Shown piece after piece: positions 6,476 to 46,421 of a stretch of 64,000 nucleotides of DNA. The stretch lies in the NCBI GenBank assembly GCA_944392655.1, contig CALXXL010000004.1, positions 62,001 through 126,000 of the forward strand, read 5' to 3'. The notes under the pieces are model-generated. The model had not been told where the DNA came from and did no database searches. It saw only the letters and a list, made by a program, of their open reading frames with translations. Position 1 is the stretch's first letter, and each line of letters opens with the position of its first letter. The position numbers and the translations under genes are program-made. The DNA is from an uncultured Victivallaceae bacterium (lineage in GTDB: Bacteria; Verrucomicrobiota; Lentisphaeria; Victivallales; Victivallaceae).

Positions 6476-7356
6476 ATTGAATCCGGTTTAACGATTTCCG
6501 TACCGACGCCTTTATCGGTAAATAGTTCGAGGAGGAGCGAGTGTTCGGCGCGTCCGTCGATCATGTGAACTTTATTTACGCCGCTGTTAAGGGCGGAGAG
6601 GCAGCTTTCGATTTTCGGGAGCATCCCGCCTGAGATGACCTTTGAGGCGATCAATTCCGGTACATCGGTAGTTTTGATAGTGGAGATGACGCTGGAAGGA
6701 TCGTTCTGGTCGCGCATAACGCCCGGCACGTCGGAGAGGAACACGAGTTTGCGAACGTGCAGTGCCTCTGCGACTTTGCATGCGGCGATATCGGCGTTGA
6801 CGTTGAAAACTTCGCCGTTTTTACCGGTTGCCAGAGGAGTTACAACGGGTATATATCCCTCCCAGATGGCGTGCATAATTGGAATGGGGTCGACGCCGGT
6901 GACATTGCCGACGAATCCGATATCGAGTTTTTCGCCGGTTTCCGGGTCGGTGGTAAAAGCTCTTTCTGCGGTCAGGATATGTTTCCCGGAGATGCCGATA
7001 GCGTTGCCTCCGGACTCTTTAGCGAGTTCGACAAGGTTGCGGTTGACCTGGTTATGCAGTACGTCGTCCACAATTTTGATAGTGCGTTCGCAGGTATGTC
7101 GCAACCCGTTGACGAATTTAACGGGAATATTCTGTTTTTTGAGTTCGGCTGATATAGCCTTGCCGCCGCCGTGAACGACGATAGGTCTCATGCCGATGCA
7201 CTCCATAAGTACCACGTCGCGCATGGTTTCGCGCACGAGTTCCGGATTTTCCATAGCGCTGCCGCCGAACTTGATTACCACCATAGCCTGGCGGAATTTC
7301 TGTATATAGGGCAACGCCTCCATCAAAACTTTGGCCTTCTGCAAACTCGATTCCAT
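6472..7356 (-). CDS. argB: Acetylglutamate kinase
   Basis: Phosphorylates N-acetylglutamate in arginine synthesis. Visible motifs: V-I-K-F-G-G-S-A-M (residues about 28-36, phosphate binding), V-V-H-G-G-G-K-A-I (substrate binding), N-V-N-A-D-I-A-A and G-G-M-L-P-K-I-E-S-C. The start is ATG 7356, preceded by AGGAG; a longer reading adds 16 residues with no ribosome site. The product has 294 residues. It heads a three-gene unit argB-aroK-aroC, a mixed arginine/aromatic operon. The acetylated-cycle partner argJ lies at 32671. Confidence 0.97.
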   Translation of the reverse strand: MESSLQKAKVLMEALPYIQKFRQAMVVIKFGGSAMENPELVRETMRDVVLMECIGMRPIVVHGGGKAISAELKKQNIPVKFVNGLRHTCERTIKIVDDVLHNQVNRNLVELAKESGGNAIGISGKHILTAERAFTTDPETGEKLDIGFVGNVTGVDPIPIMHAIWEGYIPVVTPLATGKNGEVFNVNADIAACKVAEALHVRKLVFLSDVPGVMRDQNDPSSVISTIKTTDVPELIASKVISGGMLPKIESCLSALNSGVNKVHMIDGRAEHSLLLELFTDKGVGTEIVKPDSI

Positions 7357-42861: not shown

Positions 42862-42937
42862 GGCAGGATAGCTCAGTCGGTAGAGCAGGGGACTGAAAAT
42901 CCCCGTGTCCCCAGTTCGATTCTGGGTCCGGCCACCA
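42862..42937 (+). tRNA. tRNA-Phe (anticodon GAA)
   Basis: A 76-base cloverleaf with anticodon stem GGGGA/TCCCC, loop CTGAAAA (GAA anticodon), T-arm CCCAG-TTCGATT-CTGGG and encoded CCA. The acceptor GGCAGGA/TCCGGCC has an A-G mismatch at the fourth pair; GGCCGGA or TCCTGCC would pair fully. The 3' part from TCTGGG on is repeated exactly at 43117, so the 3' strand may have been replaced during integration of the downstream island. Confidence 0.94.
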
Positions 42938-43021
42938 TTTTTTTTGCCCTGACTCCTGGTGATGGCGGCTTATAGTTGACAAGACAAGCGGGCTGGAGTG
43001 AAACCTCCGCCCGCTTTTTTA
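42921..43021 (+). repeat. 101-bp direct repeat, copy 1 (tRNA-Phe tail and terminator)
   Basis: Begins inside the T-arm of tRNA-Phe (TCTGGGTCCGGCCACCA) and runs through a spacer to the terminator hairpin AGCGGGCTGGAG / CTCCGCCCGCT with T-run (42986-43020). Identical in all 101 positions to 43117-43217. Confidence 0.97.
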
Positions 43022-43116: not shown

Positions 43117-43217
43117 TCTGGGTCCGGCCACCATTTTTTTTGCCCTGACTCCTGGTGATGGCGGCTTATAGTTGACAAGACAAGCGGGCTGGAGTGAAAC
43201 CTCCGCCCGCTTTTTTA
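43117..43217 (+). repeat. 101-bp direct repeat, copy 2 (att-like, left edge of island)
   Basis: Exact copy of 42921-43021, including 17 bases of tRNA-Phe 3' end with CCA, but without the rest of the tRNA. The base composition drops to AT-rich a few tens of bases after it, which makes it the left boundary of the restriction-modification island. Confidence 0.95.
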
Positions 43218-43371: not shown

Positions 43372-43399
43372 TTGAAATCATGAAAAACAGATATATACT
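43372..43399 (+). promoter_or_regulatory. Promoter of the methyltransferase gene
   Basis: TTGAAA (43372-43377), 16 bases, TATACT (43394-43399). Transcription would start at about 43405-43407, inside the inverted repeat described next. Confidence 0.65.
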
Positions 43400-43403
43400 A
43401 GAC

Positions 43404-43421
43404 TGCCAACAAGTGGTGGCA
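43404..43421. promoter_or_regulatory. Candidate operator of the HTH-methyltransferase
   Basis: Inverted repeat TGCCA-N8-TGGCA lying directly on the predicted transcription start, 28 bases before the ATG. A DNA-binding protein here would block transcription; the HTH domain of the encoded methyltransferase is the obvious candidate. An overlapping AGTG-N7-CACT (43413-43427) adds symmetry. Confidence 0.45.
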
Positions 43422-43448
43422 ACACTAAAAATTCAGCAGGAGTTAAAA

Positions 43449-44804
43449 ATGAACATTTTTTCCGATATAGGAATACAACTTGCAGATCTGCGTCGCAGGG
43501 CAAATCTGACAGTTTCTGAACTTGCAAGCAGAGCAGGAATTAAGGCTGTAACATTGCAGAATTTGGAAACAGGAAAATTTTGCAAGCCGGAACTTATAGA
43601 TGTTATATTAAATGTTCTAGGGTATGAAGTAAAATTCACACCTGTAAAAAAAGTTTCAACTTTTACACGTATTTCAGACAATATTCAATCATTTTTGAAA
43701 TCTGGTTACACAGAGGCAGAAATAGCCGTATTTTCGCATTATTTACATACTACAGGTTCCGTTTATGCAAATTTTTATAAGGAAATTTGGGAAAATTTAT
43801 CTTTCGGTAAGAACTGTATTTGTGAGATAGATATAAAGAGACAAATAAAAAAAGATATAAAGACGATTCCATTTCCACCTTCTGAAAAAACATCTTTTTC
43901 ATTTATCGATCTTTTTGCTGGTATTGGAGGATTCCGTCTGGCAATGCAATCCGTAGGAGGAAAGTGCGTTTTTTCATCGGAATGGGATAAAGCGGCGCAG
44001 AGAACATACTATGATAATTATGGAGATTATCCATTTGGAGATATTACGAAGAGAGAAATAAAAGATTGTATTCCCGATAATATAGACGTTCTTTGTGGTG
44101 GATTCCCATGTCAACCTTTTTCTCTGGCAGGAAAAAAACAAGGTTTTCAGAATGAAACTCAAGGAACTTTGTTTTTTGATATTTTACAAATAATTCATGA
44201 AAAAAAGCCCAAAATAATATTTTTGGAGAATGTTCGTAACCTAGTAGGGCATGACGGCGGAAAAACATTTTCAATAATACAAAATGCAATTATGGCAGAA
44301 GGATACTCGTTCCAATATCAAATTATTGACGCCAGTTCTCTTGTTCCTCAAAAACGGGTTCGTTGCTATATAGTTTGTGTAAGGGATAATAAGCCGTTTT
44401 TATTTCCGGAGATAGTAGGTCCAGAAATTCCTCTTTCTTGTGCTCTTGAAAATAATGTGCCGGATACATATACTATTTCAGATAATATGTGGGCTGGACA
44501 TCAAAAAAGAACAGAAAGAAATCTTGCACGCGGAACTGGTTTTACCGCACATACTGCGGATATAACAAAACCTGCTCATACTCTTGTTGCAAGATATTAT
44601 AAAGATGGCAAGGAATGTTTAATTCCACAGGATGGTAAAAATCCAAGAATGCTCACACCTAGAGAATGTGCCAGATTGCAGGGATTTCCAGAAGAGTTTA
44701 TTCTTCCTGAATCTAAAACGGTTGCATATAAACAAATGGGAAATTCTGTTGCAGTACCTGTCTTGAAGAAAATCGCTGAGTGTATTGTAAAACAACTCTT
44801 GTAA
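43449..44804 (+). CDS. DNA (cytosine-5) methyltransferase with N-terminal HTH domain
   Basis: Methylates cytosine in a specific site, protecting host DNA from the partner nuclease. The 451 residues start with an XRE-type helix-turn-helix (about 8-55: L-A-D-L-R-R-R-A-N-L-T-V-S-E-L-A-S-R-A-G-I), then a ~90-residue linker, then the C5-methylase core: F-I-D-L-F-A-G-I-G-G-F (motif I), G-G-F-P-C-Q-P-F-S (motif IV, catalytic Cys221), F-L-E-N-V-R-N-L (motif VI), Q-K-R-V-R (VIII) and Q-M-G-N-S-V-A (X). The start is ATG 43449 with AGGAG 6 bases before. AT-rich, unlike its neighbours: a sign of transfer. Confidence 0.95.
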   Translation: MNIFSDIGIQLADLRRRANLTVSELASRAGIKAVTLQNLETGKFCKPELIDVILNVLGYEVKFTPVKKVSTFTRISDNIQSFLKSGYTEAEIAVFSHYLHTTGSVYANFYKEIWENLSFGKNCICEIDIKRQIKKDIKTIPFPPSEKTSFSFIDLFAGIGGFRLAMQSVGGKCVFSSEWDKAAQRTYYDNYGDYPFGDITKREIKDCIPDNIDVLCGGFPCQPFSLAGKKQGFQNETQGTLFFDILQIIHEKKPKIIFLENVRNLVGHDGGKTFSIIQNAIMAEGYSFQYQIIDASSLVPQKRVRCYIVCVRDNKPFLFPEIVGPEIPLSCALENNVPDTYTISDNMWAGHQKRTERNLARGTGFTAHTADITKPAHTLVARYYKDGKECLIPQDGKNPRMLTPRECARLQGFPEEFILPESKTVAYKQMGNSVAVPVLKKIAECIVKQLL

Positions 44805-44818
44805 GGAGGGAGGCCTCT

Positions 44819-45724
44819 ATGCAATTTGGAATAGTCCAACAGGAAAAATTCAACGCAAAAGATGGTTCATATTCACTTGTTACGCGCAGAGAGCTTATTG
44901 ACTCTCAGATTACAGCTACAGATGCAGAGGCGGCATTACTGAGAAATTATTTTCTTATGAGGGGAGAACGTATACATGTAGGTAATGTAAAGTCAAGTAA
45001 TGGAGCTGCTGCAAAAGAATTTAAATTGTTTCCATCTGGGCAAATAATAAACTTGAATCTGGTTTATCCAAAGCCTGAAAAAAGTGAATTACGCTTATAT
45101 ATATCAAAAGGTGCGGGGTTCTTTCCCAATGAGGGAGATGTATGGTTTCTTTTTATCAGGCGTGATGATGAATCATTGTGGATTGGTTCTATGTCTGAGA
45201 AGGAATGGCGACGTTTGAACTCTATTGGTAAAATTGATGATGAAGAATCATTATTAGATGAAAATATTGATGATATTGATGCACAGATCTTAGCACAACA
45301 AAATCATTGTAACCATATTATTCCAGAAGGTAAACCCGCATCTATAATAGACAGCAAAAGAGAAATAATTGTTCGTCGGCGTGAAATTGCTGTGCGCCGA
45401 ATGCAGCAAAGCCGTTATAAATGTGAATTTGATGTATCACATTCGCTTTTTATCGCCAAAGCAACCGGCTGCCCTTATTTGGAAGTCCATCATATTATTC
45501 CGATTCGCTTTCAAAAACAGTTGCATGGTTTGAAGCTTGATACTTTAAACAATTTGTGCTGTTTATGTCCATCGTGTCATCGTGCAATTCATCACGCAGA
45601 AGATGATTTAGTAAAATCTATTCTTGATCGTGTTGCAGAAAAAAGAGAGATCACAAAGAATTTCGGTTTGTCAACAGAAGATCTTTATAGATTATACGCA
45701 GTTGAAGACATTGTGCGCCAATAA
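44819..45724 (+). CDS. HNH restriction endonuclease (probable R-M partner)
   Basis: A 301-residue protein; the C-terminal third is a clear HNH (beta-beta-alpha-metal) nuclease domain: Y-L-E-V-H-H-I-I-P-I-R (about 220-230), L-N-N-L-C-C-L-C-P-S-C-H-R-A-I-H-H (about 244-260), with catalytic histidine and Cys pairs for structural zinc. The N-terminal ~170 residues are a separate alpha/beta region, perhaps for site recognition; I do not recognise it. Start ATG 44819 behind AAGGAGGGAGG, 14 bases after the methyltransferase stop. Its place makes it the cutting half of the system. Confidence 0.82.
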   Translation: MQFGIVQQEKFNAKDGSYSLVTRRELIDSQITATDAEAALLRNYFLMRGERIHVGNVKSSNGAAAKEFKLFPSGQIINLNLVYPKPEKSELRLYISKGAGFFPNEGDVWFLFIRRDDESLWIGSMSEKEWRRLNSIGKIDDEESLLDENIDDIDAQILAQQNHCNHIIPEGKPASIIDSKREIIVRRREIAVRRMQQSRYKCEFDVSHSLFIAKATGCPYLEVHHIIPIRFQKQLHGLKLDTLNNLCCLCPSCHRAIHHAEDDLVKSILDRVAEKREITKNFGLSTEDLYRLYAVEDIVRQ

Positions 45725-45735
45725 TATAGCATAAG

Positions 45736-46155
45736 ATGTATTCTATGGACCGTCTAACACCTGAAAAACGAAGCTGGAACATGAGTCGCATCAAATCAAA
45801 AGATACGACTCCTGAGCGTATTGTGCGTTCGTTTCTTCATCGTAACGGATTCAGATTCAGATTGCATGTAAAAAATCTTCCCGGTAAACCGGATATAGTT
45901 TTATCTAAATATAAAACAGTAATAGAAGTTCGCGGATGTTTCTGGCATCGACACAATGGTTGTAAAGATGCTACTATGCCTTCAACCCATACTGAATTCT
46001 GGCAAAAAAAGTTTGCAGAAAATGTTGTTCGTGATCAACGTTCAGAACAAGCTCTGAAAGAGCTCGGGTGGCAGGTTATCATTATTTGGGAGTGCGAAGT
46101 GGAAAGAAAATCTTTTCAGGATTATTTGATCGCTGCAATTAAAGGCAAAATTTAA
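45736..46155 (+). CDS. vsr: Very short patch repair endonuclease Vsr
   Basis: Nicks DNA at T-G mismatches that arise when 5-methylcytosine deaminates, so it often travels with C5-methyltransferases. The family start R-L-T-P-E-K-R-S-W-N-M-S-R-I-K-S-K-D-T-x-P-E is complete, followed by K-P-D-I-V-L (catalytic Asp) and V-R-G-C-F-W-H-R-H-N-G-C. 139 residues. Start is ATG 45736 or 45745; neither has a good ribosome site. It completes a methylase-nuclease-repair trio. Confidence 0.93.
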   Translation: MYSMDRLTPEKRSWNMSRIKSKDTTPERIVRSFLHRNGFRFRLHVKNLPGKPDIVLSKYKTVIEVRGCFWHRHNGCKDATMPSTHTEFWQKKFAENVVRDQRSEQALKELGWQVIIIWECEVERKSFQDYLIAAIKGKI

Positions 46156-46337: not shown

Positions 46338-46421
46338 CCATCATTTTTTTGCCCTTATTCGGGGTGTATTTTTGAGTTGACAGTTAAGCGGGCAGGAGAT
46401 AAACCTCCGCCCGTTTTTTTT
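46338..46421 (+). repeat. Diverged third copy of the tRNA-Phe tail repeat (right edge of island)
   Basis: Begins CCATCA plus a T-run and GCCCT, compared with CCACCA plus T-run and GCCCT in copies 1 and 2, and ends with GTTGACA-n-AAGCGGGCaGGAG-n-AAACCTCCGCCCG plus T-run. The hairpin (46386-46415) is retained as a terminator for vsr. The middle has drifted. With copies 1 and 2 it frames the AT-rich genes. Confidence 0.8.

Follow-up and report, generated by a model that had tools for sequence, protein, structure and literature searches.

Does a C5-cytosine DNA methyltransferase that carries a DNA-binding head at its own N-terminus control its own gene, and if so through which site? This question is raised by a short cassette in the 64-kb stretch of DNA analysed here (the window), which belongs to a genome of 2.34 Mb in 37 contigs.

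The cassette and its methylase

The cassette (43449-46155) is a low-GC stretch, 33-39% vs. mostly 40-57% in its surroundings. It consists of three co-directional genes on the + strand, for a C5-methylase, an HNH nuclease and Vsr:

43449..44804, +, C5-cytosine DNA methyltransferase with N-terminal XRE helix-turn-helix, 451 aa (Pfam, predicted model)
43467..43622, +, XRE helix-turn-helix, residues 7-58 (Pfam; four helices in the model)
43674..43862, +, helical middle region, residues ~76-138 (predicted model; no Pfam match)
43896..44789, +, methyltransferase domain, residues 150-447 (Pfam)
44819..45724, +, HNH nuclease, 301 aa (Pfam; likely partner restriction enzyme)
45745..46155, +, Vsr mismatch endonuclease, 136 aa (Pfam)
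46350..46366, +, terminator-like stem past the last gene

The gaps between the genes are 14 nt (methylase-HNH) and 20 nt (HNH-Vsr). A search for a terminator-like site at the methylase-HNH junction found none there; two such sites lie 3′ of the Vsr gene. From its predicted products the cassette appears to be a type II restriction-modification unit, in which the HNH nuclease is likely the methylase's partner restriction enzyme. The first ~130 residues of the HNH protein (44819-45200) had no Pfam match, yet are conserved among its relatives; they may be its DNA-recognition part.

Just 5′ of the cassette is a 101-bp perfect direct repeat (42921-43021 and 43117-43217), which contains a terminator-like stem and the 3′-terminal 17 nt of tRNA-Phe. 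A diverged copy lacking the tRNA end lies just 3′ of the cassette (46344-46420). When an empty site was sought for comparison, the same-genus match to tRNA-Phe was within ~130 bp of a contig end.

Residues 7-58 of the methylase matched Pfam HTH_31 above the cut-off (E 9.5e-8), and other XRE models matched more weakly. The XRE-type helix-turn-helix that the original prediction had read at the N-terminus was thus borne out. It is encoded within the methylase reading frame, not as a separate small XRE gene. The DNA_methylase match had an E value of 7.4e-87. In the predicted model, four helices at residues 2-56 (pLDDT mostly >80) are followed by a low-confidence linker (62-71), a helical region (77-137) and the methylase fold. 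The best structural matches of the full model were M.HhaI chains; all 50 matches listed were methyltransferases, so the fold search was uninformative on the head. A model of residues 1-144 built from two sequences was poor (mean pLDDT 57.7) and was set aside. Solved relatives of the head found by sequence were weak (best E 0.0064), with 434 repressor and HipB among them. As modelled, the head appears to be 434-repressor-like; a flexible linker and the helical middle region connect it to the catalytic part. This middle region is common to head-less relatives and has a recurrent A-x3-H motif. The same genome encodes a second C5-methylase (L002 1216-2568) with its own, different HTH-like N-terminus.

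One independent full-length homologue with the same head was found, in Lentisphaeria bacterium UBA1732 (L033), whose genome is placed in the same order as the window's genome by the search taxonomy. Its methylase is 68% identical, and the methylase-HNH-Vsr order is the same. No further full-length homologue with this head was found in plasmids, phages or viral contigs.

Promoter motifs, leader and candidate operator

The region upstream of the methylase ATG (43449) contains the following features:

43372..43377, +, -35-like hexamer TTGAAA (exact pattern match)
43394..43399, +, -10-like hexamer TATACT (exact pattern match)
43404..43421, no strand, TGCCA-N8-TGGCA inverted repeat (exact; not kept by the homologue; such repeats are common in shuffles)
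43412..43426, no strand, candidate operator, 15-bp dyad AGTGGTGGCAACACT, 6/7 pairs (conservation in one homologue; position relative to SsoII)
43430..43442, +, AATTCAGCAGGAG, leader with ribosome-binding site (~43436-43442), of which AATTCAGCAGG is conserved

The promoter motif TTGAAA-N16-TATACT, as originally predicted, was confirmed at 43372-43399. It has no other exact match in the window, and of the 21 promoter-like sites in the region it ranked first, level with one located within the methylase. Transcription would be expected to start near 43406.

The original prediction had taken TGCCA-N8-TGGCA as an operator on the transcription start. The repeat is present, exact and in a single copy in 64 kb, with 0.05 expected for the exact pattern; its special standing as an operator was not borne out. 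When the 49 nt from -10 to ATG were dinucleotide-shuffled, some 5+5 inverted repeat with a spacer of 0-12 occurred in 1829 of 5000 shuffles (37%), and one with a spacer of exactly 8 in 223 of 5000. The proposed check of conservation before a close homologue went against the repeat: in L033 the left arm is lost and the right arm changed. On conservation and chance frequency it was ruled out as a candidate; judged from the sequences, it is probably not the operator.

The dyad at 43412-43426 overlaps the right arm of this repeat. It begins 12 nt after the TATACT -10 and, with a transcription start at 43406, would occupy +7 to +21. Its L033 counterpart is TGTGGTGACAACACA; GTGGTG[G/A]CAACAC is kept between the two loci and is closely followed by AAATTCAGCAGG. 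In the upstream alignment, 26 of 29 columns were identical (score 41; maximum among 2000 shuffled pairs, 33). Within the 15-mer, the outer pair A/T of the window is T/A in L033, which keeps the symmetry, and the only other difference is the centre base (G to A). The dyad is therefore kept in L033. Its 13-bp core has exactly one exact copy in each of the two genomes; with at most one mismatch there were 8 and 5 matches, vs. 8 and 6 for a reversed control pattern. We scanned 26 other methylase loci for the pattern GTGKTGNCAMCAC, beginning as much as 250 nt upstream of the earliest possible start and continuing into the gene. It was exact in one, L033, the locus with the same head, and the best of the other 25 had three mismatches. 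A search of viral contigs for the leader pattern found none.

As a dyad alone the site is ordinary, since shuffling the 80-nt upstream stretch gave an equally good one in 51 of 300 cases. A dyad of at least 6/7 pairs at exactly this position was found in 31 of 20000 shuffles, in a test designed after the alignments had been seen. For comparison, the best 28-column stretch had 22 identities within the first 414 nt of coding DNA, the N-terminal part, and 26 in the catalytic coding DNA, the latter being as conserved as the leader block, part of which is the ribosome-binding site. A coding extension was rejected as the source of this conservation: both loci keep the upstream frame open, but the frame of the conserved AATTCAGCAGG with respect to the GTGGTG codons is not the same in the two, owing to compensating indels. 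Thus, the leader conservation is not that of a protein. In L033 no sigma-70-like -10 stands 12 nt ahead of the dyad, and a terminator-like stem lies just upstream, indicating that promoter geometry is not conserved.

Known systems and relatives of the cassette

The SsoII regulatory site is described as 15 bp at +7 to +21 of ssoIIM, through which ssoIIM is repressed (PMC6100179), and methylase bound there is reported to compete with RNA polymerase (PMC6100179, PMC3695355). Plasmid pKPN2 carries the SsoII 15-mer; this operator and the length of the plasmid's methylase (379 aa) led us to class that enzyme as SsoII-type. With the pKPN2 hexamers assigned by eye, the layouts are TTGAAA-17-CATAAT-12 nt-15-mer in pKPN2 and TTGAAA-16-TATACT-12 nt-15-mer in the window. 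The window thus resembles SsoII in having one 15-bp dyad starting 12 nt after -10, and SsoII and Ecl18kI in having an XRE head at the N-terminus of a C5-methylase, whose catalytic part is 53% identical to the pKPN2 enzyme. The operators differ (AGGACAAATTGTCCT in SsoII, AGTGGTGGCAACACT in the window), and the window's head could not be aligned with those of SsoII/Ecl18kI by BLASTP. In our own alignment V and Q stand at the places of R35 and R38, residues reported as needed in M.Ecl18kI (PMC3695355). Unlike the SsoII/Ecl18kI enzymes, the window methylase has the extra helical middle region; and whereas their genes have two separate facing or divergent promoters, those of the window are co-directional, with an HNH nuclease and Vsr.

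Thirteen methylases with HTH-like N-termini were checked for upstream dyads (eight from viral contigs, L102, L091, L002, L033 and the window). An SsoII-like dyad, AGGACA-N3-TGACCT, was present in three of the viral ones (L146, L148, L178) at other distances from ATG, and no SsoII-type dyad was seen upstream of the other five. An upstream dyad is therefore usual near SsoII-type heads, and its exact spacing is not universal.

Possible clues to the target sequence come from the identity with the pKPN2 methylase and from a relative in Spirosoma that adjoins an MvaI/BcnI-type nuclease (the SsoII target is CCNGG). Observed/expected CCWGG was 0.60 in the window and 0.70 in 200 kb of its genome. In 200 kb from a genome of the same genus, where searches turned up neither the head nor the HNH protein, it was 0.39. 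Site depletion was ruled out as a guide to the target because CCWGG was lower still in that genome and GGWCC was low too.

EcoRII and ScrFI methylases, set beside the window by description, likewise have an N-terminal HTH, by which they are reported to repress their own gene; in EcoRII the nuclease gene is reportedly not affected (PMC3874152, PMC12707154). C-protein systems and C-nuclease fusions (PvuII, NsoJS138I) also tie an XRE controller to restriction genes, and fusion of controller and enzyme is described as occurring in nature (PMC3850674). In contrast to these, the window has its controller on the methylase, one dyad and no C-box seen; reading the leader by eye, we saw no GACT..AGTC palindrome.

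The genome-collection search gave 19 loci, of which 13 also encode the HNH protein and four Vsr. No HTH model matched more than 4 of 27 aligned methylases. The four HTH-bearing methylases, from reading of their N-termini, are those of the window, L033, L091 and pKPN2. In a tree of the catalytic part, whose outgroup (L091 and L093) formed long branches, the window and L033 made one clade (98/86), and head-less L035 and L034 were their next neighbours (96/93 and 99/94). The pKPN2 enzyme fell elsewhere, in a clade with 92/73, which is not a strong branch. The simplest reading of this tree is that the head was gained separately in the window/L033 branch; the alternative would be many losses.

At five of 26 loci (L036, L040, L042, L086, L088) a separate XRE gene ends within ~20 nt of the methylase start or overlaps it. 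The four checked against Pfam (L036, L040, L042, L086) were confirmed, and L093 gave a sixth, weaker match. L036, L040 and L042 have GACT..AGTC-like palindromes before the separate XRE gene, which we take to be C-boxes.

Autorepression and alternative explanations

We consider it probable, at roughly two chances in three, that the methylase represses its own operon through the dyad at 43412-43426 in the manner of M.SsoII/Ecl18kI, using an independently acquired head. Two methylase molecules would probably bind the 15-bp dyad, just 3′ of the predicted transcription start, and exclude RNA polymerase. By likeness to SsoII, the methylase should repress its promoter, and enough free methylase would hold down its own operon, the three genes of which would be co-transcribed from here. 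Two observations support the original prediction that the controller is fused and its operator lies where transcription starts: a dyad is conserved where SsoII has its site, and relatives have a separate XRE gene before the same methylase. That prediction placed the operator ~8 nt off, though.

Its corollary, that self-control would help safe establishment in a new host, fared worse. In SsoII/Ecl18kI, blocking of the methylase promoter is reported to benefit the nuclease's own separate promoter indirectly (PMC6100179, PMC3695355). In the window the nuclease gene is downstream on the same strand, after a 14-nt gap, so repression would reduce both enzymes, except if a separate promoter serves the nuclease. 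An establishment advantage therefore does not follow. The strongest promoter-like match before the nuclease gene (44446-44474) falls within the methylase gene, where it encodes a conserved protein motif.

The same position of that match speaks against a C-protein-type role, in which the head would act as activator/repressor and delay the nuclease until a threshold, rather than as a plain repressor. The relatives with separate XRE genes before the methylase, three of them with GACT..AGTC-like palindromes, favour such a role; however, a single dyad 3′ of the predicted start fits blocking and not activation, and a second box was not seen. We regard this role as quite improbable. Repression by the head through TGCCA-N8-TGGCA is more improbable still: the repeat is unique in the window and spans the predicted start, but neither arm is intact in L033, 5+5 repeats arose by chance in 1829 of 5000 shuffled leaders, and 5-bp arms with an 8-bp spacer are unlike the SsoII 15-mer.

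A somewhat less improbable, though still unlikely, explanation is that the leader block acts in RNA, or merely reflects common ancestry plus a ribosome-binding site, and that the head places the methylase on DNA without regulation. The block does end in the ribosome-binding site, L033 has no clear promoter at the matching place, and the comparison is of just one sequence pair. Against this, the outer pair of the dyad was exchanged symmetrically, the identity of the block is above that of the N-terminal coding DNA, and the dyad has an SsoII-like position. We prefer autorepression through the dyad.

We put forward a wider scheme only tentatively, as possible but doubtful. The same cassette would have obtained its controller in different ways (none, a separate methylase-coupled gene, or a fused head), and the independently gained Lentisphaeria head would make the methylase a sensor. 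Kept off the operator by unmethylated sites, it would shut the whole methylase-nuclease-Vsr operon only once the chromosome was fully methylated.

The original prediction treated HTH-bearing, self-repressing C5-methylases as an established type of control, and we agree; the scheme itself is already known from enterobacterial plasmids. Judging from titles and abstract openings in the open-licence literature, we recognised no description of this cassette in Lentisphaerota. The locus would extend methylase-as-repressor control (SsoII, Ecl18kI, EcoRII, ScrFI) to an uncultured PVC-group lineage. It differs in its seemingly separately acquired head, in its candidate operator, and in its gene order, through which repression would reduce the nuclease as well. 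Since some relatives pair the same methylase and HNH protein with no controller and others with a separate one, these loci form a compact set in which to ask how each arrangement affects establishment and dosage. Among the relatives, L085 has two HNH copies, one on each side of the methylase and all on the same strand. In L086 a Vsr match beside the cassette (6906-7254, minus strand) is split in two by an interruption, and this Vsr gene may be broken.
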